DNA of 64,000 bases from Rhizophagus irregularis (taxonomy: Eukaryota; Glomeromycota; Glomeromycetes; Glomerales; Glomeraceae), in NCBI RefSeq assembly GCF_026210795.1, contig NC_089447.1:3660501-3724500 (forward strand). Reading direction: 5' to 3'. Shown here piece by piece: positions 5,358-64,000 of the stretch. Position numbers and translations under genes: made by a program. Below the pieces are notes generated by a model. It worked only from the letters and a program-made list of their open reading frames with translations. It was not told the origin of the DNA and searched no databases. Each line of letters opens with the position of its first letter. Within the stretch, counting starts at the first letter, position 1.

Positions 5358-6985
5358 ATGAAGGAAAAAACTAACAAAAATAAAATAAATAATGATAAAG
5401 TATGTTGTTATTATTACCAAAATATTGTTATATTAATTTGCTAATACAATATTTTCTATTCAAGTTTTATTTACCTACAGAAGACGAAATAAATTTTTTC
5501 AAAAAGAAGTCAAGAGTAGTAAATACAGATAAATCCACAGCAAATTGGGTTCACCAATTTGAAAACTTTCGTGAAAAAGCTGGATTTACTGGTAAAAGCA
5601 TAGATATTACTGATAGAAAGGAATTAGAAAGTCAAATCTGTAGTTTCGTAACAGTTATGAAGACTAATTCTGGTGAAGAATACAAGGCTAGATCTATCCT
5701 CAGTGCTATACATGCATTAAACCGACATTTAAATGATTTATCATCACTATCTCCAATGGATTTTACTTCAAGAAAACAATTTCCAATATTATATGATGTA
5801 TTAGATGGCAAAATGAAACATGTAGCAGAACAAGGAAAGGCCAATGTTCAAGGAGCTGATGGTCTTTCTGTTGAAGAATGTAAAAAAATACTGTATTCAC
5901 CAGTATTAAACATTGACACACCCACTGGATTGTTAAAAAAAGTCTTTTTTTTAAATGCATTATTCTTAGCTCTTAGAGGTGGTGAGCACTATTCATTACA
6001 ATATTCTCATTTTAAGTTTAGAGCTGATGGTCAGGGTTTTGATGTAAATATTCCTCGAAGTAAAACAAATCAAAGGGGTATTAATGGCTCATTAAATGAT
6101 GAAAAATTAAGAATTCCATATCATCCAATGATAATGGAAACTTATAACAAATATTTTTCTAAAAGACCAGGTAATGCCGATAAAGAATTCTATTTAAGAG
6201 AATATGTGTCTGAAGATGGTGAGTTCAATGTACTTTATCATTTTATGCTATTTTTTTCAGTAATATGACATTTATTAGTTAACTTATTTATTTATTTATA
6301 GATTATATTATTTATAATCGTTGGTTTCAAAAGTTTCATGTTGGTGAAAAGCGATTAAAAAATTTTTTACATGAAATTGTAATAGAATGTGGTATTGATA
6401 TTGGCAATCGAAAGATCAGCAACCATAGCGCCCGAAAAAGTTTAGTAGGAATATTGAAAGAACTTGGTACTAGTGACAATGAAGTTATGGCAATTACCCG
6501 GCATAAATCAAATTCAGGATTCACTAGCTATGAAAGAACTAAAGAAAAAATGCAGAATGTTAGTTTAAACAACTTAATGAACGTTCTTATAGATAATGAT
6601 CAAATGGAAGGCTCGGGTGAGTTTTAATTTTAATTTTTAAATTGATTTTCAATATACTAATTATACAATATGGAATTTTAGATGTTTTAGAACCTTTGCC
6701 ACATTTTTCAATGCCAGATAAGCAAGCATTAACACCAATTGAACTTAAATCAACTTTTACTAGTGCACGCGAAATTTTTAAAGGTAATTTATTAATAGTT
6801 TGTTTTATTTTATTTTATTTTATTGATTTCTATTAATAAAATTAGCTGAAATCAATCAAGAAAGCCGAATTCCATTTTCTAACAAATCCAACAAATTGAC
6901 AATAAATGAAACTGAAACTTTACAGGATATTTTTAAAGGAAACGGATCAATTTTCAATAATTGTACATTTGTATTCAATAGATAA
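5358..6985 (+). CDS. Crypton-like tyrosine recombinase
   Basis: Five exons join without stops: 5358-5399, 5465-6218, 6302-6616, 6682-6783 and 6846-6985 (1353 nt, 450 residues). The start ATG at 5358 is chosen because the 14-codon first exon ends in a strong donor, GTATGT. The catalytic set of tyrosine recombinases is visible: an Arg in ALRGGEH, a basic strand in PRSKTNQRG, HxxR in NHSARKS, His in ITRHKS and a Tyr nucleophile in FTSYERT. The N-terminal part (TANWVHQFENFREKAGF) resembles the SAM-like core-binding domain of Crypton/DUF3504 proteins. The C-terminal tail ends IFNNCTFVFNR. It would cut and rejoin DNA through a 3'-phosphotyrosine. It may be a live Crypton gene or a domesticated copy. 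All splice sites are canonical, which argues against a dead copy. Confidence 0.82.
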
Positions 6986-43010: not shown

Positions 43011-46000
43011 ATGGGTCAACGTATTGGTAAAGGTAAAGCATATAGCATAAATATATAATATAAATTAGAATTATTCAAAATTTTTAAACCAAACTTCAAT
43101 ATAATAAAACTAGTTTTGTATAATATCAAGAAACCGAAAGGTAAATATAATATACAGAATAAAGATGAAATACTAAGATTTTTATTTATTAAAAAAATTA
43201 ATTGTAAATAATCAAATATAATTAAACCAAATTTGCAATATAACAAAACTAGGCACTAAAGAATTTGAGGGGAGTGGCACTGAAGAATTTGAAAGAAGAA
43301 GTATTGAGGAATTTGAAGGAAGTAGTACCAAGGAATCTAGAGGTATATCAAACAAGCTGAAATATTAAATTATTATTTATAAAATATCTATAATTATACC
43401 TTATATAATATGCAAATATAATTTAGACTAATTATATTATATAAAAATTATATTAAATATTTAGCTCGTAAGTTAATATAATTGAATAATAGCTAATTAC
43501 TCATTATTTTTTATTGTATTTCATATAACTAAATAATTTATTTAATGATTAATAATTCTATAGTTGGTAAGTTATCAGTTATTTAAATCTTTAATTCTTT
43601 GTTTATTTATTTTACATAACATTCAAATAACTAAATTCTTTATTTAAATACTAACTATTTAATAATTAATTATATTACAGATGGTAAGTTACAATATCAT
43701 ATACATTATATTTATTTGTTTAATATTTTATATAATTCAACTAATTATATTCTTAATTTAAAGTTATCAGTTATTTAAATCTTTAATTCTTTGTTTATTT
43801 ATTTTACATAACATTCAAATAACTAAACTCTTTATTTAAATAACTATTTAATAATTAATTATATTACAGATGGTAAGTTACAATATCATATATATTATAT
43901 TTATTTGTTTAATATTTTATATAATTCAACTAATTATATTCTTAATTTAAATAACTAGATTGTAAGTAATATATATAATTTACAGTAAATACTTTTATAT
44001 TATATTTATATCTAACTAATTAATAATCAATAATACTATAGGGTGTAAGTTATATGGTATTGATATTTCTATCATTTATATAATTTAAACTAACTAATTT
44101 CTTTATTTAAAAAATTATTTTGTAATTTAGTTGGTAAGTCATAAGTTATTTATTTAATTTTATTATAACATTTGTATATAATTTAAACTAACTAATTTCT
44201 TTATTAAAAAAATTATTAAATAATATAGAGAGTAAGTATTTATTTAATTCTATTATTAATTATTTATGTTGTGCGTCAGCTGCCGATTTGCGTCAGATGA
44301 CGCCGGCCTACATTATCGGCCCAGTATTATAATGCCTTAAGTGGGTTGGCCAGCATTACTACTAGGCAGCCGTCATCTGACGCACAACATTTATATAACA
44401 TTTACATATAATTTAAACTAACTAATCTTTATATTTAATAGATCGTAAGTTATAAGTTATACTTATTTATACAATATTTAAACTAACTAATTTCTTTATT
44501 TAAATAATTGTTAAATAATATAGTTCGTAAGTTATTTATTTAACTTTATTATTACTTGTTATAATATTTACATATAATTTAAACTAACTAATTTCTTTAT
44601 CCAAAAAATCATTAAATAAAATAGCCCGTAAGTTATTTATTTAATCCTATTATTACTCATTTATATCATAATATTTACAAATAATTTAAACTAACTAATT
44701 TCTTTATTTAAAAAATTTTATTTTAGTTGGTGAGTCAAAAGTTATTTATTTAATTATATTGTTACTTATTTTAAAATATATAAACTAATTAGTATCTTTA
44801 TTTAAAAAATTATTTTGTAATTTATTTTAGTTTGTAAGTCATAATTTATTTGATTCTATTATTACTTATTATTTATATAATATTTATGTATAATTTAAAC
44901 TAATTAATTTCTTTATTTAATAGATCGTAAGTTACAAGTTATTTATTTAATTCTATTATTACTTATTTATATAATATTTACATATAACTAACTTTTTTAT
45001 TTAAAAAATTATTAAATAATATAGGGAGTAAGTTATTTATTTAATTCTATTATTTATATAATACTTACGTATAATTAAAACTAACTAATTTCTTTATTAA
45101 AAAAAATTATTTTGTAATTTAGTTGGTAAGTCATAAGTTATTTATTTAATTCTATTATTACTTATTTATATAATATTTACATATAATTTAAACTAAATAA
45201 TTTCTTTATTTAAAAAATTATTAAATAATATAGAGAGTAAGTTATTTATTTAATTCTATTATTACTCATTTATATAATATTTACATATAATTTAACTAAC
45301 TAGTAATTTCTTTATTTAAAAAATTATTAAATAATTAATATAGGGAGTAAGTTATTTATTTATTTCTATTATTACTTATTTATACAATATTTGCACATAA
45401 TTTAAACTAATTAATTTCTTTAATTAAAAATTATTAAATAATATAGAGAGTAAGTTATTTATTTAATTCTATTATTATTTTATTTATATAATATTCACAT
45501 ATAATTTAAACTAACTAAATTTCTTATTTAATAGATTGTAAGTTATAAGTCATTTATTTGATTCTATTATTAATTATTTATATAATATTTACATATAATT
45601 TAAACTAATTAATTTCTTTATTTAATAGATCGTAAGTATAAGTTATTTATTTAATTCTATTATTACTTATTTATAATATTTACATATAATTTAAACTAAC
45701 TAATTCCTTTATTTAAAAAATTATTAAATCATAATAGAGCGTAAGTCATTTATTTAATTCTATTATTATTTATTTATATAATATTTATATAATTTAAACT
45801 AACTAATTTCTTTATTTAAAAAATTATTTTGTAATTTATTTTAGCTGGTAAGTCATAAGTTATTTATCTAATCCTATTCCTTATTTATATACTAATATAT
45901 ACACATAATTTAAACTAACTAATTTTCTTTATTTAATAGATCGTAAGTTATAAGTTATTTTTATTTAACTTATTTATATAATATTTGAATCTAATTTAAA

Positions 46001-49000
46001 CTAATTAATTTCTTTATTTAAAAAATTGTTAAAATAGAGCGTAAGTTATTTATTTAATTCTATTATTACTTATTATATAATATTTGCATATAATTTAAAC
46101 TAACAAATTTCTTCATTTAAAAAATTATTAAATAATATAGGGTGTAAGCTATTTATTTAATCCAATTATTACTTATTTATATAATATTTATATATAAATT
46201 AAACTAACTAATTTCTTTATTTACAAAATTATTTTGTAATTTATTTTAGTTGGTAAGTCATAAGTTATTATTTTAATTCTATTATTATTTATTTTAGATT
46301 ATTTACATATAATTTAAATAACTAATTTCTTTATTAAAAAAATTATTAAATAATATAGGGAGTAAGTTATTTATTTAATTTTATTACTAATTACATACAG
46401 TTCACCCTCGCTATAGTGAAGCTCATGGGCTGAAGGTTAAGATTAACTATAGTAAGGGATTCGCTATAGCGAAGGTGAACTGTATTAAGAATTATTATTT
46501 ATATAGAAAATCCGTACCTGAGCTTTTCTTTACTATAGAAAATTATTCACTATATAAAAATTCACTATAGCGAGGGTGAACTGTATAATTTAAACTAACC
46601 AATTTCTTTATTTAAAAAAATTATTTTGTAATTTATTTTAGTTGGTAAGTCATAGTATGTTATTCATTCAATTCTATTATTATTTATTTATAAAATATTT
46701 ACATATAATTTAAATTTTAAACTAACAAATTTCTTTATTTAAAAAATTATTAAATAATATAGGGAGTAAGTTATTCATTTAATTCTATTATTACTTATTT
46801 ATATAATATTTACATATAATTTAAACTAACTAATTTCTTTATTTAATAGATCGTAAGTTATAAGTTATTTATTTAATTCTATTATCACTTATTTAAATAA
46901 TATTTATATATAATTTAAACTAAATAATTTCTTTATTTATAAAAATTATTAAATAATATAGAGCGTAAGTTATTTATTTAATTCTGTTATTATTTATTTA
47001 TATAATATTTACATATAACTACTAATTCTAATTTCTTTATTTAAAAAATTATTTTGTAATTTATTTTAGTCGGTAAATCATAAGTTATACTTATCTATAT
47101 AATATTTGCATATGATTTATTCTAACTAATTTCTTTATTTAAAAATTATTTTGTAATTTACTTCAGTTGGTGAGTCATAAGTTATTTATTTAATTCTATT
47201 ATTACTTATTTATTTATATAATATTTACATATGATTTATACTAACTAATTTCTTTATTTAAAAAAATTATTAAATAATATAGGGAGTAAGTTATTTATTT
47301 GATCCTTATTTAAATAATACTTATATATAATTTAAACTAACTAATTTCTTTATTTAATAGATCGTAAGTTATATATAATTATTTATTTAATTTATTATAT
47401 AATATTTACATATAATTTAAACTAATTTCTTTAATTTCTTTATTTAATAGATCGTAAGTTATAAGTTATTTATTTAATTCTATTATTACTAATTTATATA
47501 ATATTTACATATAACCTAAACTAACTAAATTCATATTTTAAAAATTATTAAATAATATAGGGTGTAAGTTATTTATTTAATTTTATTATTATTTATCTAT
47601 GTAATATTTACTTATAATTTAAACTAACTAACTTCTTTATTTATTAAATATTATAGGGTGTAAGTTATTTATTATTACTTATTTATATAATATTATATAT
47701 AATTTAAACTAATTTCTTTAAAAAATTATTTATGATATAGCTTGTAAGATATTTATATTTCTATTGTTATATATTTTAAATAATATTTATTTATTAACTG
47801 AATTCTTTCATTAAAAAAATATCTGTTACTTTAGTTGGTAAGTTGTAAATTATAGGTTATTATATATATTTATCAAAAAAAACTAAGACTTATATTACAT
47901 TAAATTCTTATTTAAATTTAGAGTAAGTAATAATTTATTTTAGTGTAATTATAATAATATAAGCTATAATATAATTTAAATTTATAGATTTGGAAAAAGT
48001 GAAAATGCAATTATAGATGATTTTATTCTTAAAAATGGATTAAAATGGATTCCTTATAACACATTTAGAAAAGTTGAATATTTTAATGAAGGAGGATTTG
48101 GTACTATATATAAAGCTACTTGGTTAAAGAATAATAAAGATGAAAAAGTAATTCTTAAATGCCATAAGAATTTAAATGAAAATTTAAATGAATTTTTAAA
48201 AGAAGTATGATAATATAATATATTATTTTCTATTTTTAATTTAAATTAGAATTTATTTATATTAATAAATTATTATTATTATTTTATAGTGGGAATATCA
48301 TACAACTGTTTTAAGTTCAAATGATATTATATATTTTTATGGATTTACAGAAGATCCAAAAACTTCAAAATATATGGTAGTAATGGATTATGCAAATAAA
48401 GGTAATTTAAGAGAAAATTTAACAAGAATAGTTGAAAATAATTGGAATCAAAAATTATATATGTTGTACGAAATTATTTCTGGGCTTAGTAAGATGCACG
48501 AAAAAAGTCTTATTCATTGTGATTTTCATGATGGCAATATTTTAAATCATAATGATAAGAATAAGGACAAATTTTATATTAGTGATTTAGGATTATGTCA
48601 ACCTGTAAAATCGGTTTTGAAAGAGTATGATATTTATGGTGTTATACCATTTATGGCTCCTGAAGTTTTAAGAGGCCAATCTTATACTACAGAGAGTGAT
48701 ATATATAGTTTTTCTATGGTTATGTGGGAATTTACATCTGGAGTACCACCGTTTAATAATAGAGCACATGATTTTCAACTTAGTTTAAGTATCTGTAAAG
48801 GTGAACGTCCAGAAATTATTGAAAATACTCCACAATGTTATGTAGATTTAATGAAAAAATGTTGGAATGAAGATCCATTAAAAAGACCATCTTCTAAAGA
48901 AGTATTAAAAATTATTGAAAATTGGATTTTCCGTTCTTATGGAGTCAGTGAAGAATTAAAAAGCAACATTATAGAATTTATAAATGCACCAATTGGACAT

Positions 49001-49300
49001 AACAACCTTTCTACTAAATCTCATCCTAAAGCATGTTATATAAGTCGATTACTTGATTTTACTGGTAAAAAATTGAATGAAGTTCTTGATAGTGAATATT
49101 CACAAGCATATGATTGTGCAATTAGAGATTCAAGACCATTAGGTATGTACTATAATATATAAAAATTAATCTTGCAAATTATTTATGTGAAATTAATTTA
49201 TTTATTTAATTATTTAGATGAAAATACTAGTAAAAAGATGAATCAAATTCTTGAAAGTGAAGGTTCACAAGCTAGTGTAAAAGCAAATGCTAGTAAGTGA
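43011..49300 (+). CDS. Protein kinase with tandem single-codon micro-exons
   Basis: Exon 1 (43011-43032) MGQRIGKG; exon 2 (43253-43342) has four diverged copies of an (S)xT/IxEFEG repeat. Then follow 41 micro-exons of 3 nt and one of 1 nt (47922), then 47988-48204, 48290-49142 and 49218-49300 (TGA). Kinase motifs: WIPYNTF, EGGFGTIYKATW (glycine loop), VILKCH (Lys), HCDFHDGNIL (HRD with Cys for Arg, catalytic Asp kept), DLGLCQP, MAPEVL and CWNEDPLKRPSS. The C-terminal tail (APIGHNN, KACYISRLL) is that of the fungal family. Exon 2 ends in phase 1. Joining the micro-exons gives 42 codons without a stop (starting A-L-D-D-D-W, ending R-W-S-F-E) and enters FGKSENAIIDDF in the correct frame only if the 1-nt exon is used. 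Direct splicing of exon 2 to 47988 hits a stop within about ten codons. The kinase part is sure; the micro-exon splicing is inference from sequence. Confidence 0.8.
44267..44389. mobile_element. MITE inside a micro-exon intron
   Basis: Inverted ends TGTTGTGCGTCAG and CTGACGCACAACA face each other, with GCGTCAGATGACG also paired. The GC-richer core contains ACATTATCGGCCCAGTATTA. It lies in the intron between micro-exons 8 (44229) and 9 (44442) and leaves both splice sites intact. Confidence 0.75.
46396..46585. mobile_element. Pogo/Tc1-like MITE inside a micro-exon intron
   Basis: Ends CAGTTCACCCTCGCTATAG and their exact reverse complement are bordered by TA on both sides. Terminal CAGT and a TA target fit the pogo/Tc1/mariner superfamily. 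An internal partial inverted copy (GCTATAGCGAAGGTGAACTG) lies at about 46460-46482. It is inserted in the intron between micro-exons 28 (46359) and 29 (46642). Confidence 0.82.
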
Positions 49301-50703
49301 AGATTTGAATAATTATATAATTAAAGATTTTAGTCATTAGGTATGTGTTATAATATATAAAAGAATTAATCTTGCAAATTAATTAACTTTATTTATTTAA
49401 TTATTTATATATTAAAACAGATGAAAATTAACTAATTGTATGTGTATTTTTAAAAAAGATTTATAGTTTTTTAAGTGATATTTGATATCATGCATTCAAC
49501 AGAAATTGTTTTTTATTTTATTCATTTTGGATTTATTTAAACACTAAAGGTTAGAGTACTAGTAAATAATTTACAAGATTCTTTGTTTGTAATTTAAATA
49601 ATTCCTTTTTTATATTTTAAGAATTATTTAAACACTAAAGTTAGAGTAGTAAATATTTTACAAATTTCTTAGTTTGTAATTTAAATAAATCTTTTTTATT
49701 TATAACTTTCAATTATTAAATATAACTTATCAAATTAATAATGAGTATATAAAACCATTTCTCATGTATAAAATTAAAAATAAATAATGTAAAATTTTTT
49801 ATACTCATTTCAAGAGTTGATTTATAATGCTGACTTTTATTTTTAATTCTTATCAATCATTCAACTAAAAAAAAAGACAAACTATACTTGAGTTTTTTTT
49901 TCACTCCTTTTACTGTATTATAGGTTATATATATTTCATTAAAGTTTTATTTTGAAAAAGCAGAGAAATTTCGGCCAAAGACGTTTAAAAAAAAGAGTTA
50001 AATATTTTAAAAATGTTTCACGTTTCTTTTAATACTGCCCAAAAGCATTTCTTCATTATTTACGTTGTGTACAGTCTGACTTAATAAAAAATTAATTACA
50101 GAATGTAGTTCTTTATTTACATTATTTCATATATATAAAGTTTACATGATCTTTTTAATGATATGTAGCATTATACAACTAAGTATTATTATAGGTCCAA
50201 AATTAATACCAATTTCATAATTTGACGCAAAATTGATTATATCCAATTTGTGTCTAGCAACTATTTCGACCATTATCACTTTTTTAAAAAATCATAACTC
50301 TAATTTTTAAGAAATGAAATCGTTATTACAGTATATATTTTAAAAATTAACAAAACTTATATATGTCACACAAACCAAATAACAATCTAAGATTTCTTGC
50401 CGATTCTTAGTAATATTTATTTAGCTGGCCGTTACAGCCACGCTAAGGCAGAATTAAAAGTAAATGATGCATATTGTTTTTAAAATTGCGCTTACTTCAT
50501 TCTATATTCAGTACAGAGATCGTACATCAAATCACATGTAATTACTCACCTGACGCGTTAAACTAATTATCACTATACTGTATATAATCTGTACTGGAAC
50601 TAGTTCACTCTGTGAAATAAAAATAAAAATAATAATAAAAATTTGTTTTAAATTTAAAAACAAAAATTTAAGCGCAATACCTATTTTTATTTTTTTTAAA
50701 AAA
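49301..50703. other. Downstream region of the kinase gene, no gene
   Basis: At 49330-49440 the terminal intron and start of the last exon (TTAGGTATGTGTTATAATAT, ACAGATGAAAATTAA) are repeated, suggesting an alternative or duplicated 3' end. Two diverged copies of TTTAAACACTAAAG-TTAGAGTA occur near 49535 and 49625. The rest is AT-rich without features. Confidence 0.45.
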
Positions 50704-51904: not shown

Positions 51905-52128
51905 GACGCAAAGTTATAAATTCAGTTTTCATATCCCGGCCAAGTTAAAAATAATTTATATTTTATAATATCATGTAATAACCGCACTTATTACAGAAAT
52001 CAATATCATAAATTGAGACAGACATATTGCTTTAAAGAAAATTTTATATTCTGATAAATGGGAAAAAAAAAGATTAGCAATTTTATTACAATTGATTTCC
52101 CACGCCAAAAATTTAATAATTATGATAT

Positions 52129-52763
52129 TGTTAGTATCAGTTCTTTTATCGTTTATTAATATAAACAAAAGATTATTTAGGGTAAGCAGAAGGTATATGT
52201 GTATATGTAATATAACGATAGTTAATGCAGGGTTAATAAATAAAATTAATATCTCTAAATTACAATTGACCAAATTTACTTCAAATCCGATCAGATGTGA
52301 ATAAAGTATTGCACTCCCAATGGCAAATACGATCAGACACAAATAAAGGATTATGACAATAAATGACAATAAAACAATAGGTTAGGTGTATATGACAACA
52401 ATTAACAATGAGATAACCAAAGATATTTATAATAATAAAATATTTTATTTAATATCAATAAATTATCACTTAATATCTTAGTGACTTGGGTACCTATCTT
52501 GAATACATTGAAAAATAACACATCTATTTATATGTAAAAACACTAAGCTAAAAATGTTTAAAATGTTTGATATGTTTAATATGTGCGATATATTTAATAT
52601 GTGCAATATATCTGATATATTTGATATATTTGATATATCAAACATTTTGAACATTGATCCTCCCGTCATATGACGTTGATCATCCAACAGTAATATTAAT
52701 CATCCCGATAAATGATCAATGGTTATATCACGTGATTTCGTCACATCGTTTTTTATCGTAACA
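52129..52763 (-). repeat. 3' LTR of the Ty3-type element
   Basis: 635 bp, the downstream LTR on the minus strand. It keeps CpG at the site near 52288 where the other LTR has TG, and has CA or TG where the other has CG near 52702 and 52720. It would provide the transcript's polyadenylation signal. Confidence 0.93.
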
Positions 52764-52776
52764 TCACCCTCCGCTT
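52764..52776 (-). promoter_or_regulatory. Polypurine tract for plus-strand priming
   Basis: AAGCGGAGGGTGA on the minus strand directly precedes the 3' LTR. All but one base are purines, as expected of the RNase H-resistant primer of LTR elements. It overlaps the last codon and stop of the extra ORF. Confidence 0.75.
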
Positions 52777-53212
52777 AATTTTCAACCCCGTTGAAAATCT
52801 CCAAAGATCTCATGACCAGATCTTGATATTCCTCCTGGCTCAACTTTCTGACCAAAGTTAAGGTAATATTAACGGTCCTCATAATTTGACTTACGCCAAA
52901 GGCTTCAAACAGGTAGTATACTCGTTGGGATGTGATACGATAATGTAGCGTCAGTTGTTGTGTGTAGTGGCTTCGCAAAGCATTGGTTTTTACTTTCTTT
53001 TCCAAAAATTGTCCCAAGAAAAATGCATTTACCAAATGCATTCGTCTGTCACCCATTCTTTTTGAGCGTCTCATAGCCTCCCTTAATGTTTCGAATTTAC
53101 TATCCATACTTGCTTCCTCGTTATATGGAGGCACTAGTGGCGTAACTTCAATTAGGAAAATTTGATAAAGGTCTTCAAGAATCTTTTGGTGTGCATTCAC
53201 TGTATCTGCCAT
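52775..53212 (-). CDS. Extra ORF between integrase and 3' LTR
   Basis: An intact 145-residue frame begins MADTVNAHQKILEDLYQIF. It is rich in predicted helix and basic clusters (REAMRRSKRMGDRRMHLVNA, FLEKKVKTNALRSHY) and has RITSQRVYYLFEAFGVSQIM before its C-terminal part. It has no signal peptide or membrane segment, so it is not an envelope-like protein by sequence. It is the only undamaged frame of this copy and lies on the coding strand of the element, with its end overlapping the polypurine tract. The function is unknown. Confidence 0.7.
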   Translation of the reverse strand: MADTVNAHQKILEDLYQIFLIEVTPLVPPYNEEASMDSKFETLREAMRRSKRMGDRRMHLVNAFFLGQFLEKKVKTNALRSHYTQQLTLHYRITSQRVYYLFEAFGVSQIMRTVNITLTLVRKLSQEEYQDLVMRSLEIFNGVEN

Positions 53213-53416
53213 AGATAAATATCGATAATAAGTTTAAAATAAACAATAAATAATATAACCTAATATAACCTATAATCAAAAAAAAATTCACACATATATA
53301 TATAAAAAAAATATATATATTTTTTTTTTTTTTTTTTCGATAATCCTAATTTATGCATGTACATGCATTTCATCTTATGATTATGTCATTCATGCAACAT
53401 AAACTAATTAAGTCAT
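53213..53416. other. Low-complexity spacer inside the retrotransposon
   Basis: Contains an (AT)n stretch with an A run and a T run of about 20 (53275-53337) between the pol end and the extra ORF. Confidence 0.5.
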
Positions 53417-54698
53417 CACCGTTGGTGATAATATTTCAGCCGATCAGCATTTACTGGGACCTTTAAAATTTTTCCTTCCATAGTCCTAAATTTGTATGCC
53501 CATCCCCTATAATCTCATGGACATAATATGGTCCTTTCCAACGTTCTTGTAACTTCTGTTTTCCTTTAAATTGACTTTGGTATAATAGAACAAGGTCACC
53601 TATCTTGAAGATAATTTCCTTAAGATCAGCATCATGACGTTGTTTCTGCTTTTGCTGCAATTTGTATATCATATCCTGTGTCTCAAGTCTATCACCTACT
53701 ACTTTACCGGTTAATGTATGTATGCGCTTAGTAAGATCATCTTGCCAATTATCTTCAGGATAATTAACTTGAGAAGTTTCTATCGCAAATTCAATTGGCA
53801 ATACTGCATCCCAACCATACATGAGGTAAAAAGGCTCATGGCGTGTAGTATTATGCCGCTTGGTTCTATAGGCAAACAGGACAGATGGTATATATATATC
53901 CCAATTATCCTTGTTTTCATTGGCATATTTAGCCAATGCTTCACATAGCGTTCGGTTAAAACGCTCCACCAATCCATTGGTCTGTGGGTGATATGCCGTT
54001 GATAGTCTATGTTTAGTACCGAGATTATCACATAGAGAATTCAACATTTCGTTTACAAAGTGGCTTCCACGGTCTGTTAATATTTCCTTGGGATAGCCAT
54101 GGTGGCATATAATATCATTATAGAAAAATGTGACTACTGAGGATGCTTTTGCGTCAGGAATGGCTTTCGCTTCAGGCCATTTAGTTAGATATTCAGTGGC
54201 AACCACTATATACTTGTTGCCATTTTTCGTTACAGGAAGCGGTCCAACAATGTCCATACCTATTCTGTCAAAAGGTTGTCTGACCTTAATTGGATGCAGA
54301 GGTTCTACGCGTCGGTTTTTTCCTCTGCGTTGACATTCGTCACATGTTCGTACATATCTACGAACATCCTCAAACATTTGCGGCCAGTAATATCGGATTT
54401 TTACCCTTCGATAGGTTTCGTCAATTGAGAAGTGTCCAGCTAAAGGATCTGAATGTGTATGATATAAAATTTCCTCTATTTCACTTTCTTTAGCTACTCT
54501 AATCGGCCTGTTAGGATTATCTTTATTCTTTTTGTATAACTGGTTATTTAAAATTATAAAATATCAAGACTTTCTTTTTATAGCAGCCTGCTGCTCTTTT
54601 GAGATATCGGTCGGCATTGAGAAATCTGTCAAATATCGGATGAGTGAGTAATACGTTGTTAAATCCATTCCGTTAATCCAAAGATGGGAAATCCGTTA
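53417..54698 (-). pseudogene. pol: pol part 3: integrase
   Basis: Same frame: MDLTTYYSLIRYLTDFSM, then TGA (54566-54564) between KS and YFIILNNQLY. The zinc-binding HHCC region follows (H...H in YHTHSDPLAGHFSIDETYRR, C..C in RTCDECQRRG). The catalytic core has GMDIVGPLP (Asp), LTDRGSHFVNE (Asp) and HPQTNGLVERFNRTL (Glu). The GPF-type C-terminal end (LQERWKGPYYVHEIIGDG) shifts frame in a G run near 53500; the other frame gives KFRTMEGKILKVPVNADRLK and stops at 53417. Confidence 0.9.
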
Positions 54699-54758
54699 AA
54701 GAGGTGTCAAAAATGTAAATCCGGTGTGTGTAAAGATAAATATAATATATCGGTTTTA

Positions 54759-55400
54759 TTAAACTCTTATTCGGCTTAATGTATCGACGTTGGTGTGTAA
54801 TTTTCCTGGGCGATTTATAATTTCCAATTCATATCCGTTTAAAGTCATTATCCATCTGCCAAATTTGCCGACCGGGTTAGTCATATTCATCAAATATCTC
54901 AACGCTGCATGATCAGTTATAACAAGGAATTTTTGACCGTGAAGGTAATGGTGAAAGTGTCTTACTGCCCATATGACGGCAAGACACTCTAATTCAGTAA
55001 CGCCATAATTTCGCTCATGCTTATTGAGAGTCCTGCTCGCATAAGCAATTACTCGTTCCTTCTTTTCTTCATTCTTTTGCGATAGTATAGCTCCAATGGC
55101 GAAAGTGGAGGCGTCCGTATAAAGAATAAAGGGTTTGGTGAAATTAGGGTACGCCAATATTGGTGGTATCATTAAACAACACTTTAACCGTTCAAAAGCG
55201 TCGTGTTGTTCTTTACTCCACACATACGGGACATTTTTCTTTAATAAACGATTTAGCGGTTCAACGATAGATGAAAAATTCTTTACGAATTTTCGGTAAT
55301 AAGATGCTAGGGCGACAAATCCCCTTAGTTGCGTTAAATCCTGTGGTATAGGAAACTCCTTGATAGTTCGCAACTTTTCTGGATCGGTTTGTATGCCATT
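54759..55400 (-). pseudogene. pol: pol part 2: RT connection and RNase H
   Basis: Same frame as part 1: FPIPQDLTQLRGFVALASYY, then RNase H with ILYTDASTFAIGAILSQ (first Asp), ELECLAVIWAVRHF (Glu) and VITDHAALRYL (Asp). It ends TLSRIRV and TAA (54761-54759). Another TAA follows directly, and a further TAA lies at 54698-54696, so the linker to integrase is decayed or differs from the usual form. Confidence 0.88.
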
Positions 55401-57347
55401 TCAGCTTACAACATGTCCTAAAAAGGGGATTTCTTCTTTAAAGAAGAAACATTTTTCCGGGCTTAATTTGAGACCGGCCTGTCCCAATCGATAGAAAACC
55501 TGTTCCAGATGATGGAGATGTTCATCGAATGTCTTGGAACCTATATTGATATCATCTATGTATACTACGATGAATTGCCATAGTATATCCCATAATATCG
55601 TATCCATTAAACGCTGAAAAGTGGCGGGAGCGTTACAAAGACCAAAGGGCATCACCGTAAATTCATATGTTCCGAATCTGGTGATAAAGGTCGATTTTTC
55701 TCGGTCTTTTGGGTCCAATTCAACCTGCCAAAAACCACTGGCAAGGTCCAAGGATGAAAACCATTGAGATTCTGACAAGGTTTCCAACATATCATCTACT
55801 CGTGGCAACGGGTAATTATCCCTCTTCGTAACCTTGTTCAATTTTTGGTAATCCACGCAAAGGCGTTTTTTACCATTTTTCTTCTCTACCACTACTACTG
55901 GTGAAGTCCATTGGTTTTTTGACGGTATAATTAGTCCTGCTTCTAAAAGCCATTGTATTTCATCTTTTATAAACAGTTGGTTTTGATATGAAGTTAGGTA
56001 AAACCTTTGTTTAACTGGAGCGGCAGTTCCGGTATCGATATTATGAGTAATTACCGATGTTCGTCTGAAATCATCAGGATTCCAGGCGAATAAGTTCTGA
56101 TATCGCCCCATAAACTTTTGAAATTTCTGCTGTTGTTCTTCACTCAGTTTTCCTGTATGAAAATTGCCCTTTTCTATTTCCTCGTATTGATAATAAAACT
56201 CTTTTTTAATAAAATTATTATTTTTCAATTCATCTTCAATTTCTTGCGCTTGTTCTTTAGTTATAAATTGAGCATTGCAAAATAATTGATCTTGCGTTTC
56301 CTCGTTGTCGCTTTCGTACTCTTCTTCTTCGGATTCGTCAGCGGCTTCCTCTTCATCTTCGTCTATCTCCAGGTCGGGTACTTCAATACTTACTATGTGT
56401 TGAGGCATCTCCCTACATTCAGTGGCGACTTCAAACGTTTCATCTTGCCACTTAATTACCATTACATTGCTATCATAATTTAAGATAGCCTTAGTCTTTC
56501 GTAACCAATCGTTACCAACAATTGCAGAATATGAGTTAGCATCCGTAACGATGGCGTCCATAGGGATAATACAACCATGTATTTTTAGTGGCAGGTTGGT
56601 CACTGCCCCTAACGGCCTTCGTCTTTCACCGTTTACATTGACCATAACAGTTTTCGACGCTTGGGTTATTTCTATTTCTAAATCCTTCAATAGCGATAAG
56701 GATATAATACTCCCAGCTGATCCTGAATCAACTATCAGTGGGAACTTGATATGGTTTATCGAGGCTTCGCAGTATAACGCCGAGGTTTTATCATCATTTG
56801 GTTTTGAAAGATTTACTTGTAGTAAATCATTGACTTCAGGCGTATTTCCATTTTCTTGAGTCACTTCGTCGATTACCATCTTAGTCGTTTTTTTATCCTG
56901 GTCGTCGTCCCTTTTTCTAACTACAGGTTTTCGTAATTGTTTGGCAATTGTCAATCCAAACTTCGGATTCATAGCCAACAATTGACCATTGGTAATATCA
57001 GCCTTTTGGTCAAAGAATTGTTGAGGGGTATACGGCTCAACCATTCTATTAATTGGGGCTACAGTAACCAATTTCTTTTTGGTTCTTTTTGGTACTGCCC
57101 TTTTAGCTTCAGTTTGTTTTACTTCCGATGTCTTTATCGGTCGTTTACTTTTATTCACTTGTTGCATAGCCCGTAATACATTTTCCTCTTCAGTAGGATT
57201 CTCCTTTAATGTTCCTTCCAACGGGTTTAATCTCGACATGCTACGGGTTGTCCTAGTAGCGGGGTACGTTTCCAATAATGTAAGGTTTGAGGGGATTGTC
57301 TTTTGGCATGTACGCTTACCCTCCGAAGGTACGCCATTTAGTTTAAA
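55401..57347 (-). pseudogene. pol: pol part 1: protease and reverse transcriptase
   Basis: The frame runs from the frameshift site without a needed ATG. Protease motif LIVDSGSAGSIISLSLL (catalytic DSG), then an acidic stretch, then reverse transcriptase: KKNGKKRLCVDYQKLNKVT, PFGLCNAPATFQRLMD and VVYIDDINIGS (YIDD catalytic pair). It ends at TGA (55403-55401) after FLGHVVS. The next codons, NGIQTDPEKL, continue the normal sequence in the same frame, so the TGA is a single-codon lesion. Confidence 0.9.
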
Positions 57348-58984
57348 GATTGGTCGCTAGTATTATCTTGAGGTAATAATTGGGCTAACATCTGCTGGAT
57401 TTGTGCCAGTTGTTGTCCACTATCATTGGCTGGTTGAGGGACGGTCGTATTGCTATTACTAGTATTATTAATAAATGGTGCTTGTCGATTATTAGGAACA
57501 CCGATATTGTTACCATTCGGACAATTTCTAATAATATGTCCGGGTTGACCACATGAATAACATACGACTCAATTTTGACGGTTTGGTGTATATGCCGTTG
57601 ATTGACTCGTATTTCTAAAATCACCACTATTATTATAACCTCTATTACCACGATTTCCAGTACTTAAGTTTTGAACTTGTTTAGTTAACTCGTTAATCGC
57701 CTTAAGAAGATCATCTGATTGATTGCTGGTGCCAGACGGCGCAAATTTATTTAAATAGGCGTTAACGGCATGTTGATCTTTATGAGTTAATTCATAAGCT
57801 TTTGCCCGGTCCACAGCGCCATTCCACGTCTGGTCATTGTGTGGTTTGACGGTTACATATAAATCCGGTAATAAACCGTTGACAAACTTCCGTGCTTTTA
57901 TAGCGTCAGGATAAGCGAAGGCGTTCGTCTCAACTCTCCTATATAATTCTTGTAACGCAGCAGCATATGTATTGACGTCCTCGCCAGGTTGTTGACGTCT
58001 TTGTTCTAACTCTGTGGTCCAGATCTCAACCAACGTTTGAGTTCTAAATGCCGTAGGGAAGTTTTGGATGAAATCGGTATTATTGTTGTTACCAGTCCAT
58101 GCGATAATTTTATTTGGGTTACCATTCGGTAATGCTTGGTTAGTATTCCACCATGTGGAGGTGGCACCCTTTAGATAGGCTGGTACAACTTCCAGTTTTT
58201 GTCCGTTTGCGATACTATTTGCATTACAAGATCTAGTAAAGTCTTCTAACCACGCGACCGGGTCCTGATTACCACTATAGAAATATGGTAATTCGGCCAC
58301 TTTACCTTCTCGTCGTGGAGGATTATTAATAGCTTGGGTATTTCCAACCAAAGCATTGTTAGTGTTAGGCAACGCTTGGGTTAAAGCAGCAATGGCAACT
58401 CGCAGTTGTTGAAAATCCTGTTGATTAGGTTGGGCCATATTAATTACCGGTGGGATTACTGGAGCTGGGTTATTCGGTGTGTTGTATATAGGTGGTAATG
58501 GAATATGTAAATGGGGAATTTCTTCCTCGGAATTCTCTGATGTAGTATCACTTAAAGCTTCCGGTTCTGGCGAGGTGGTAGTCTCACTGACTTGATAGAG
58601 AACTTCGTTAGGATCCTGTTGAAAACCGTTGGTTAGATTATAGGCGTTAATAAGATCCTGACGTAAAAGAGTATAATCTATTGGTTCTATATCAGTGTAT
58701 CGGATGCTGATCAATAGGTTATGTATGGCGTTGTCAATATCCGCGTTAGTGATTGAATAAGCAACCTCTTCAAAGTATTGTTGAGTGTATCGGGTATATT
58801 CTATGACCGGATAATTAAAAGATATCCAATCCAAAAAGTGTTGAAAAGTGGGGGTTAAGGGGATCTCAGATGGGTAACAATTATTACACGATAGATCACG
58901 ATGATAAGCAGCTATATTATTTAGCCCTAATTGTCTATGTATAGCGTCGTATATAGCGTTGCGATTAAAGTGGTTTTGGAACAT
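57338..58984 (-). pseudogene. gag: gag with in-frame TGA before the zinc knuckle
   Basis: From ATG at 58984 a 471-residue frame carries the capsid-like region (DPVAWLEDFTRSCNANSI, ATSTWWNTNQ, RKFVNGLLPDLYVTVKPH). A TGA at 57571-57569 follows PNRQN. The same frame then continues VVCYSCGQPGHIIRNC, a CCHC zinc knuckle (CxxCxxxxHxxxxC), and a Gln/Asn-rich tail to TAA at 57340-57338. The stop thus separates capsid from nucleocapsid. It may be a CpG-type CGA to TGA mutation. The last gag codons overlap a frameshift site. Confidence 0.88.
57341..57347 (-). promoter_or_regulatory. -1 ribosomal frameshift site TTTAAAC
   Basis: On the minus strand the gag frame ends tcT-TTA-AAC-TAA. T-TTA-AAC is a canonical X-XXY-YYZ slippery heptamer, placed directly before the gag stop. 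After a -1 slip the frame reads TTT-AAA-CTA-AAT-GGC, which is the pol frame (same phase as reverse transcriptase at 57275 downward). Five bases later, GGCGTAC can pair with GTAC-AT-GCC, giving a stem at a normal distance. Pol should thus be made as a Gag-Pol fusion. Confidence 0.75.
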
Positions 58985-59020
58985 AAAAAGAAGGGATTAA
59001 AATAAGGATTCGGATGATTT

Positions 59021-59036
59021 CTGGCAGAAGGCACCA
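59021..59036 (-). promoter_or_regulatory. tRNA primer-binding site
   Basis: Two bases inside the 5' LTR the minus strand reads TGGTGCCTTCTGCCAG. TGG at the start is complementary to a tRNA CCA end, so reverse transcription should be primed here. The tRNA species was not identified. Confidence 0.75.
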
Positions 59037-59038
59037 AT

Positions 59039-59673
59039 TGTTAGTATCAGTTCTTTTATCGTTTACTAATATAAACAAAAGATTATTTAGGGTAAGCAGA
59101 AGGTATATGTGTATATGTAATATAACGATAGTTAATGCAGGGTTAATAAATAAAATTAATATCTCTAAATTACAATTGACCAAATTTACTTCAAATCTGA
59201 TCAGATGTGAATAAAGTATTGCACTCCCAATGGCAAATACGATCAGACACAAATAAAGGATTATGACAATAAATGACAATAAAACAATAGGTTAGGTGTA
59301 TATGACAACAATTAACAATGAGATAACCAAAGATATTTATAATAATAAAATATTTTATTTAATATCAATAAATTATCACTTAATATCTTAGTGACTTGGG
59401 TACCTATCTTGAATACATTGAAAAATAACACATCTATTTATATGTAAAAACACTAAGCTAAAAATGTTTAAAATGTTTGATATGTTTAATATGTGCGATA
59501 TATTTAATATGTGCAATATATCTGATATATTTGATATATTTGATATATCAAACATTTTGAACATTGATCCTCCCGTCATATGACGTTGATCATCCAACAG
59601 TAATATTAATCGTCCCGATAAATGATCAACGGTTATATCACGTGATTTCGTCACATCATTTTTTATCGTAACA
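59039..59673 (-). repeat. 5' LTR of the Ty3-type element
   Basis: 635 bp. Compared with the 3' LTR it has C for T in the block near 59056, T for C near 59198, G for A near 59612, C for T near 59630 and A for G near 59658. It should carry the element's promoter. The AT-rich block with ATATTTGATATATTTGATA is a possible core-promoter region (inference). Confidence 0.93.
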
Positions 59674-62590: not shown

Positions 62591-62596
62591 TTATGT

Positions 62597-62670
62597 AAAT
62601 GTCAATGACAATGTCAATGTCAGTGACAATGTCAATGTCAATGTCAATGTCAATGTCAATGACAATGAAA
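62597..62670. repeat. Hexanucleotide repeat (AATGTC/AATGAC)
   Basis: About twelve units of AATGTC with interspersed AATGAC and AGTGAC variants. It directly precedes a region that leads into the hairpin satellite. Confidence 0.9.
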
Positions 62671-62984
62671 AAAACTTTTAATGCCAACTTTTCGCAAAAA
62701 CTCTTCCTGTGCCACTAAAAGTCCCTGTTAAATTGTTGCATCATTCAATATTTGCATAATTTCATTTTTTTGTTGATCATTAAAATTTCATAAAATATTG
62801 CAAAAAAATAAAAAAATTGTAAAAAAAACGTTTCAGCATTTTTTCATATAATATTATTAAAAAATTGCCAAAAACTTTTTTTTTTGCATTACTATTAAGA
62901 AAAAAACGTTTTGGCATTTTTCCATATAAAATTATAAAAAAATAACACAAAAACGTTTTTTCTTCATTTTTTATTTTTTTAACA
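62671..62984. other. T/A-rich lead-in to the satellite
   Basis: Contains three loose copies of AAAAACGTTTYRGCATTTTT (near 62826, 62907 and 62953) that may be an older, diverged form of the satellite or a separate repeat. Confidence 0.45.
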
Positions 62985-64000
62985 AGAAATGTCAAGACTG
63001 ACGTTTTTAATTAAAAAAAACCAATATTTTTTTGATTTTTAATCACAAAAATGTCAAGTCTGACGTTTTTAATTAAAAAAATCATTTTTTTTGATTTTTT
63101 AATTACAAAAACGTCAAGTCTGACGTTTTTAATTAAAAAAAAACCAATATTTTTTTAATTTTTATTTTTTAATCACAAAAATGTCAAGTCTGACGTTTTT
63201 TAATCACAAAAATGTCAAGTCTGACGTTTTTTAATTAAAAAAATCATTTTTTTGATTTTTTAATAACAAAAACGTCAAGTCTGATGTTTTTAATCAAAAA
63301 AATCATTTTTTTTGATTTTTTAATTACAATAACGTCAAGTCTAACGTTTTTAATCAAAAAAATCATTTTTTTTTGATTTTTTAATTACAAAAACATCAAG
63401 TCTGACATTTTTAATCAAAAAAATCATTTTTTTGATTTTTTAATTACAAAAACATCAAGTCTGACGTTTTTAATTAAAAAAAACAATATTTTTTTGATTT
63501 TTAATTACAAAATGCCAACTGCCAAGTCTGACATTTTTAATTAAAAAATCAATATTTTTTTGATTTTTAATCACAAAAACATCAAGTCTGACATTTTTAA
63601 TTAAAAAAAACCAATATTTTTTTTGATTTTTAATCACAAAAACGTCAAGTCTGACGTTTTTAATAAAAAAATCATTTTTTTGATTTTTTAATTACAAAAA
63701 CGTCAAGTCTGACGTTTTTAACTAAAAAAATCAATTTTTTTGATTTTTAATTACAAAATTGTCAAATCTAACGTAAAAAATAATTTTTTGAATCATAAAA
63801 ATGTCAAATCTGACGTTTTTAATTAAAAAATCATTTTTTTTTATTTTTAATCACAAAAATGTCATGTCTGACGTTTTTAACTAAAAAAATCATTTTTTTT
63901 TAATTTTTTAATTAAAAAACGTCAAGTCTGACGTTTTTTAACTAAAAAAGTCATTTTTTTGATTTTTTAATTACAAAAACGTCAAGTCTGACGTTTTTTA
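62985..64000. repeat. Hairpin satellite with TGACGT motifs, runs off the window
   Basis: About 18 units of roughly 57-62 bases. Each holds AAAACGTCAAGTCTGACGTT, a stem with loop AGTC, followed by an A/T palindrome of the type TTAATTAAAAAAATCA facing TTTGATTTTTTAATTA. Units differ mainly at CG positions (ACGTC, ACATC or ATGTC; GACG, GACA or GATG). TGACGT/ACGTCA is the half-site bound by bZIP proteins of the CREB/ATF kind. The array continues beyond 64000. Confidence 0.9.

Follow-up and report, generated by a model that had tools for sequence, protein, structure and literature searches.

Predicted arrays of one-codon exons closed by a one-nucleotide exon in a kinase gene family of Rhizophagus irregularis

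A kinase gene family of Rhizophagus irregularis (Glomeromycota) very probably carries protein-coding arrays of consecutive one-codon exons that are joined in order. One member lies in a 64,000-nucleotide (nt) stretch of contig NC_089447.1 (RefSeq assembly GCF_026210795.1, positions 3,660,501 to 3,724,500, forward strand), which is termed the window here and whose first base is position 1. An initial annotation made from this sequence had described 41 three-base exons between tandemly repeated introns within a kinase gene, with selection for splicing and frame and with growth by duplication of an intron plus one codon. That annotation proves essentially right, although the window by itself would not prove array splicing, and the argument below is built mainly on the whole gene family. 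Anatomy, frame, order and spacing are read from the DNA, and the mode of splicing is inferred.

The window array occupies positions 43343-47987 of the plus strand. Direct reading and a pattern scan give the layout YAG, three bases and a GT donor in 41 of 41 units, in agreement with the constant spacing claimed initially; the same scan has 8 matches in the remaining 59 kb of the window. The 41 exons begin at positions 43465, 43564, 43681, 43870, 43959, 44042, 44131, 44229, 44442, 44524, 44625, 44727, 44831, 44924, 45025, 45123, 45234, 45344, 45447, 45535, 45629, 45738, 45845, 45940, 46038, 46141, 46250, 46359, 46642, 46763, 46850, 46962, 47070, 47167, 47283, 47361, 47451, 47561, 47657, 47741 and 47835, and the array also contains a single-nucleotide exon. 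Donors are GTAAGT in 36 units, GTGAGT in two, and GTAAGC, GTAAGA and GTAAAT in one each. Steps from unit to unit measure 78-121 bases save three of 189, 213 and 283 bases, which corresponds to introns of 75-118 nt, with three longer ones that measure 186, 210 and 280 nt. The 186-nt intron sits within a 189-base tandem duplication. The other two long introns hold inverted-repeat insertions (44261-44395 in the 210-nt intron; 46395-46586, with 26-nt arms that are 100% complementary, in the 280-nt intron), neither assigned to a strand and neither touching an exon. At least 15 kinds of trinucleotide had been counted, and 15 kinds are indeed present. A branch-like CTAACTAAT motif had been placed upstream of each acceptor; this is true of most units (CTAA[CT] in 36 of 41, CTAA in 40 of 41), and "each" is too strong if taken literally.

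The window array is one of many. Pattern counts were made over the R. irregularis genome (146,748,485 bases in 32 contigs), and the paralogues compared come from this same genome, in place of other isolates. The strict pattern, in which CTAACTAAT is followed after 8 to 38 bases by TAG-NNN-GTAAGT, has 702 matches at 3-nt spacing (271 + 431) and none in a reversed control. With a spacing of 1-2 nt there are two matches (control 1), with 4-5 nt one (control 1), and with 6-8 nt four, all of six bases (control 0). Positions were listed for about 100 strict matches, and the sample analysed consists of the window, 19 stretches at listed matches, and 25 more, mostly at the conserved kinase exon (one, L036, is unrelated). 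In the window and the 19 loci, the distance from a GTRAGT donor to the nearest upstream YAG within 40 nt is 3 nt in 653 of 705 cases, 1 nt in 14 and another value in 38; of the 653, two fall within the window but not within its array. Branch-like anchors chosen with no splice site required (n = 578) have an acceptor and donor within reach in 536 cases, with a spacing of 3 in 528, of 6 in four, and of 4, 10, 12 and 20 in one each. A further 42 anchors have no pair within reach; the examples displayed comprise GC donors, AAG acceptors and stretches that lack a unit. When weaker sites are added, 1018 internal exons are tallied over all arrays, of which 1006 measure 3 nt, six 6 nt, one 9 nt, two 4 nt, two 2 nt and one 0 nt; this tally favours 3-nt units where readings compete.

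Introns across the arrays are mostly 75-115 nt long and near copies of others in the family, with a TAG acceptor and, in most, a branch-like CTAAC/CTAAT motif; the spacing remains 3 while intron lengths vary widely. The donor is GTAAGT in 862 of the 1006 three-base units. One locus, L018 (C3:4847700-4857600), has a GC-donor unit (GCAAGT) eight times and two 4-nt exons, and is possibly a decaying copy or a case of tolerance of GC-AG introns. Eleven copies with both ends seen have 19 to 48 three-base exons per array. A complete copy, L015, has an open frame from ATG to stop of 473 amino acids (aa) that runs through 37 one-codon exons and a one-nucleotide exon. Since the strict pattern catches 160 of the 1006 units in the sampled loci, a rough extrapolation suggests about 4,400 one-codon exons in the genome, a figure that depends on loci chosen partly by that same pattern.

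The evidence that carries the reading comes from stop codons at the junctions. In phase 1, each codon combines the final base of an exon with the two leading bases of the exon that follows, and 93 unbroken runs with 994 exons provide 901 such codons, for which the null expectation was obtained by shuffling exons within each run 1000 times. Joining each exon to its immediate successor in phase 1 yields one stop among 901 codons, compared with 26.9 +/- 4.1 in the shuffles, none of which was as low. All three stops are affected (TAG 1 vs 19.5 expected, TAA 0 vs 4.9, TGA 0 vs 5.1), whereas comparison codons show no such loss, with AAG observed 41 times (29.7 expected), CAG 12 (14.1), GAG 31 (21.7), TGG 63 (47.3) and TAT 63 (77.9); TAT, TAC, TGG, TGT and TGC combined occur 136 times in this phase against the single stop. 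Removal of identical unit pairs leaves 864 codons, again with one stop. The depletion is confined to one distance and one phase. When exon i is joined to i+2, 27 stops arise (24.5 expected), and when it is joined to i+3 there are 31 (22.1); distances of 4-10 are near expectation. In reversed order, there are 36 stops at distance 1 (26.7 expected), and the lows are 9 at distance 5 (17.6) and 10 at distance 6 (16.0); none of the 17 other joining distances falls below half of the expected stops. Phase 2 at distance 1 gives 153 stops compared with 136.8 expected. Because such selection acts on translated sequence, a loss of stops that is confined to direct neighbours is evidence that every micro-exon is spliced to the one directly after it, is read in phase 1 and is not routinely skipped. 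What points to constitutive inclusion is an evolutionary signature; in-order splicing and translation explain it, and we found no other explanation.

Stops as exon triplets are also scarce (3 of 1006, with 26.9 expected from base composition), but TAT, TAC, TGG, TGT and TGC are scarce too (5 vs 56), so that this triplet scarcity is not specific to stops. A phase-0 reading of the array, which would give a hydrophobic peptide, was rejected: phase 1 is where the first exons examined come to an end, and TGA makes up three of the exons. The selection for splicing and frame proposed initially is upheld for the family, through the genome-wide 3-nt spacing and the absence of stops at next-neighbour junctions in a single phase, and is weak for the window alone.

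A second regularity lies at the 3' end of the arrays. Ends were scored in 37 sequences with a recognisable kinase exon, of which 20 are 1-kb pieces with 5-9 units, and in 37 of 37 the last unit has an exon of one nucleotide: 36 were found by script (A in 33, G in two, T in one) and L052, with a longer last intron, by eye. Seven long loci whose sampled stretch shows no recognisable kinase exon were left out (L010, L012, L014, L017, L020, L026, L027); L010 among them has TTTAG|A|GTAAGT ahead of a diverged kinase exon. The first exon ends in phase 1 in 11 of 11 copies read by eye, including the window. In 34 of the 37 ends, the exon lengths sum to 1 modulo 3 and no stop is met on the way into the kinase exon. 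Across the genome, the tail pattern TTTAAATTT(N)AGNGTAAG occurs 102 times, compared with 7 for the control, and recovers 26 of the 37 known ends; with correction for this recovery and for the control, a rough estimate of about 135 array genes may be derived from tail matches, most of which carry no array check.

The window gene illustrates how the frame would be kept. Its predicted exons, all on the plus strand, begin with exon 1 at 43011-43032, which holds the start ATG and ends in phase 1 (ATG GGT CAA CGT ATT GGT AAA G|GTAAAG). Exon 2 at 43114-43140 (CTAG|27 nt|GTAAAT) keeps phase 1, and exon 3 at 43253-43342, with acidic repeats of the GTEEFEG type, also ends in phase 1 (TCT AGA G|GTATAT); the R. 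irregularis protein P0009 has a segment of the exon 3 kind in the same frame. Downstream of the 41st micro-exon, the one-nucleotide exon A at 47922 (TTTAG|A|GTAAGT) changes phase 1 to phase 2, and the first kinase exon at 47988-48204 is read in phase 2 (A TTT GGA AAA AGT), which is the frame of FGKSENAI-like R. irregularis proteins. The second kinase exon extends from 48290 to the stop codon at 49162. The 41 x 3 + 1 bases turn phase 1 into phase 2, as the kinase exon needs, and a direct join of 43342 to 47988 is out of frame. The total of about 124 nt between these flanks, given initially, stands if the one-nucleotide exon is counted as a 42nd unit, which the initial annotation did not name, and fails otherwise. 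The predicted spliced window string has the end of exon 3 followed by CTCTTGATGATGATTGGTTTGAGAATC and, further on, GGTGGTCTTTTGA followed by ATTTGGAAAAAGTGAAAATG. No stop interrupts the predicted spliced protein between ATG and the end of the kinase domain, and it matches PF07714 (PK_Tyr_Ser-Thr) with E 4.3e-43 and 147.9 bits against a curated cut-off of 23.1. A further donor, GTATGT, at 49143 in the second kinase exon means that the gene may reach past 49162. An 87-base repeat containing AG-TTT-GTAATT lies downstream of the kinase stop at 49533-49699 and turns up again in many listed paralogues; an intron of the 3' untranslated region is one possible identity among others.

Comparison of the units indicates how the arrays have changed. 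Each unit was paired with its closest match, which was selected on one flank and scored on the opposite one with all arrays pooled. On such held-out flanks, introns differ by 0.21-0.32 per site and exons by 0.35-0.43, whereas random pairs differ by 0.65 in the exon, 0.42 in the downstream flank and 0.49 in the upstream flank. Relative to random pairs, the exons thus change at about the pace of the introns, and the middle of the peptide appears almost unconstrained, apart from the need to avoid stops and keep frame. Hypervariable exons under diversifying selection were considered and rejected: an apparent contrast between nearest neighbours of 25% in exons and 5% in introns shrinks to 0.35 vs 0.21 and 0.43 vs 0.32 on held-out flanks, and is gone relative to random pairs. 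Array ends are more conserved; many start with CTC-TTG/TCA-ATG/AAG-ATT-GGT and end with CTT-TTG-A, which are read as ALxDW and [AS]FE. The nearest relative lies within the same array for 321 of 901 units, so that unit types are common to different arrays as well as locally duplicated. Growth by duplication of an intron plus a codon fits this pattern of similarity.

Spliceosomes are generally thought to recognise very short exons with difficulty. In the mechanism that we propose, the spliceosome would remove each intron by intron definition, with the strong donor GTAAGT offsetting an exon that has no room for exon signals. Sites on the two sides of a 3-nt exon are too close for joint binding, and two complexes could hardly share three bases, so that neighbouring introns would be removed in turn. 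The array would begin and stay in phase 1 until the final one-nucleotide exon shifts it to phase 2 for the kinase exon. With all exons included in order, each unit would add one residue to a little-conserved segment ahead of the kinase domain, with ends that many copies conserve. Tandem duplication would add whole codons, which would make growth nearly harmless, and selection would remove units that break a splice site or the frame or that make a stop with the next neighbour. In its full extent, this reading is likely, if less firmly so than in-order joining itself: about 135 kinase genes would hold some 4,000 or more constitutive one-codon exons beside their own satellite-intron copies, spliced in order, with the one-nucleotide exon as a fixed phase adapter. 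Each array would then be a coding satellite with one residue per repeat, giving a segment that grows and changes codon by codon at almost no frame risk.

Several other explanations need to be weighed. The array could be one long intron removed recursively in bites of about 95 nt, with the 3-nt pieces mostly or often left out of the messenger RNA (mRNA). A strong donor stands almost directly after each acceptor, as at recursive sites, any number of 3-nt exons can be dropped without loss of frame, and public gene models do skip the array. A recursive ratchet point, however, is a zero-length exon (AG|GT) that is absent from the mRNA, and here the spacing is 3, with a single 0-nt case among the 1018 internal units. 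Stops are missing at distance 1 and present at distances 2, 3 and more. Common skipping would also have selected against stops at distance 2, and rare inclusion would have left neighbours undepleted; neither fits, and we regard recursive removal as very unlikely. It is less credible still, to the point of being nearly negligible, that the array is an ordinary AT-rich satellite in a large intron with splice-like motifs that are shared by descent and meaningless. The units are tandem repeats, many of them highly alike, and a common ancestor would have set the 3-nt spacing initially; descent of this kind leaves unexplained why the spacing holds despite wide variation in intron length, why stop loss is specific to phase, order and neighbour distance, and why a frame-repairing one-nucleotide exon is kept at every scored end. 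A third possibility, improbable although the least remote of the three, is that the family is spliced as proposed and the window copy is a relic no longer under selection. The window's lack of stops (0 vs 1.17 expected, with 25% of shuffles likewise at 0) is compatible with this, as are its GTAAAT and GTAAGA donors and the two insertions in its introns; against it stand an open frame from ATG to stop, a full-scoring kinase domain, 41 of 41 exons of 3 nt and an intact one-nucleotide exon.

Some observations weigh against constitutive in-order splicing. The absence of stops within the window is not significant when taken alone. Several arrays have stretches of more than 140 nt between units in which no unit is read, and 3 of 37 arrays fail: L018 with its two 4-nt exons, L025 with exons of 2, 0 and 2 nt, and L047 with one stop. 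L026 has TTTAAAGTAAGT at the site of the one-nucleotide exon, whose acceptor has probably been lost. Nine splice-site bases differ by only 0.03 between units, a value biased low since units were found by those bases. The case for array splicing is built on DNA, and public gene models of R. irregularis skip the array. One protein search gave eight family members, of which six are named R. irregularis DAOM 181602=DAOM 197198 or R. irregularis and one R. diaphanus. The R. irregularis models P0001, P0002, P0005-P0008 and P0010 hold just a short stretch ahead of the kinase exon, P0004 starts at the kinase exon, P0009 bridges exon 3 to the kinase exon by three residues (DGK), and P0008 seemingly reads through the donor after the one-nucleotide exon (by eye). 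In P0001 and P0010, NLE stands ahead of FGKS, as though reading ran along the last intron as far as the one-nucleotide exon, with a splice from there to the kinase exon; this agrees with the donor after the one-nucleotide exon being used. The R. diaphanus protein P0003 has a run, MIGGGG...MIMLSK, ahead of the same kinase exon that reads by eye as about 37 joined array codons with the conserved start and end; the phase used for these codons is a different one, and the model may have been computed without transcripts. P0003 was set aside as proof of splicing, given this other phase, the lack of fit to a one-nucleotide exon where one is expected, and an origin in an ab initio model that is as likely as one in transcripts; we keep it only as a sign that the array exists in a second species. 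A search for more proteins like P0003 found P0003 itself only. A retrocopy of a spliced message was also sought and rejected: the last-junction pattern with up to three mismatches occurs in 80 places, mostly the ordinary genomic kinase exon, and the place with one mismatch (L028) looks by eye like a coincidental hit in sequence of another kind. The 124 spliced bases had no BLAST match, and an empty answer is uninformative for that tool.

An Rfam search of the window gave no match, nor did one unit pattern against a set of viral contigs, which may omit records of the R. irregularis genome. Two 300-nt direct repeats at 52127-59336, 99% alike and 6910 bases apart, flank minus-strand open reading frames that look by eye like gag, protease/reverse transcriptase and integrase; this is probably a recent Ty3/gypsy-like long terminal repeat retrotransposon. 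At 5402-6268, a 288-aa open reading frame resembles by eye a tyrosine-recombinase-like integrase of a mobile element. From 62593 to 64000, an array of 6/18-base tandem repeats is followed to the window end by units of about 60 bases with an inverted core (AACGTCAAGTCTGACGTT).

If the proposed reading is true, one genome holds 3-nt exons by the thousand, arranged dozens to a row, together with 1-nt exons that perhaps number a hundred or more, and apparently splices them without routine skipping. It would offer a natural, much-repeated test bed for minimal exon size, for the sufficiency of intron definition, and for the turn-taking of neighbouring introns, and would show a harmless route for repeat expansion inside genes. 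It also suggests that annotation of these arbuscular mycorrhizal fungal genes misses coding sequence that standard aligners leave unmapped. According to a 2024 paper, no description of functional micro-exons existed for filamentous fungi, and fission yeast was the sole fungus in which they had been tested (PMC11121469). Open-access literature on micro-exons, on exons of one codon or one nucleotide, on introners, and on these fungi's kinase or tandem-repeat genes contains no such array among the matches listed; subscription papers were mostly outside this scope, and absence in print is not proven.

One of the two closest likenesses is to the micro-exon genes (MEG) of Schistosoma, which are described as having 10-20 exons per gene of 6-81 bp (3-81 in its abstract), mostly 15 bp, with introns of 0.1-5 kb (PMC10526429). 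According to the same source, their very short exons follow one another in large number, have lengths mostly divisible by three, and are hard for automatic annotation. Comparable rows occur here, as the 653 of 705 donor distances and 1006 of 1018 internal exons at 3 nt indicate. In contrast to MEG genes, the exons described here are nearly all 3 nt, with 19-48 per array in the 11 copies seen at both ends, the introns are mostly 75-115 nt and copies of one another, a 1-nt phase exon ends the row, and the predicted product is a kinase (PF07714), where MEG genes encode secreted proteins. The other is to Arabidopsis APC11: there, a constitutive 1-nt exon (A) between two introns sets the frame, and the paper argues similarly for turn-taking of the neighbouring introns (PMC4674806). 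APC11 is a single gene with one such exon, whereas here every family member has its own, placed behind a row of 3-nt exons. Drosophila homothorax is reported to have an isolated 3-nt exon of one codon (PMC7392893); it is a single, alternatively spliced exon, unlike the dozens in a row here that the stop test suggests are routinely included. Introns that multiply as repeats are reported for introner-like elements and for intron gain by tandem duplication (PMC4457414, PMC4974935). Both of these give introns within ordinary exons. In R. irregularis, by contrast, every repeat unit comes with a single codon of its own, and the units remain in tandem.

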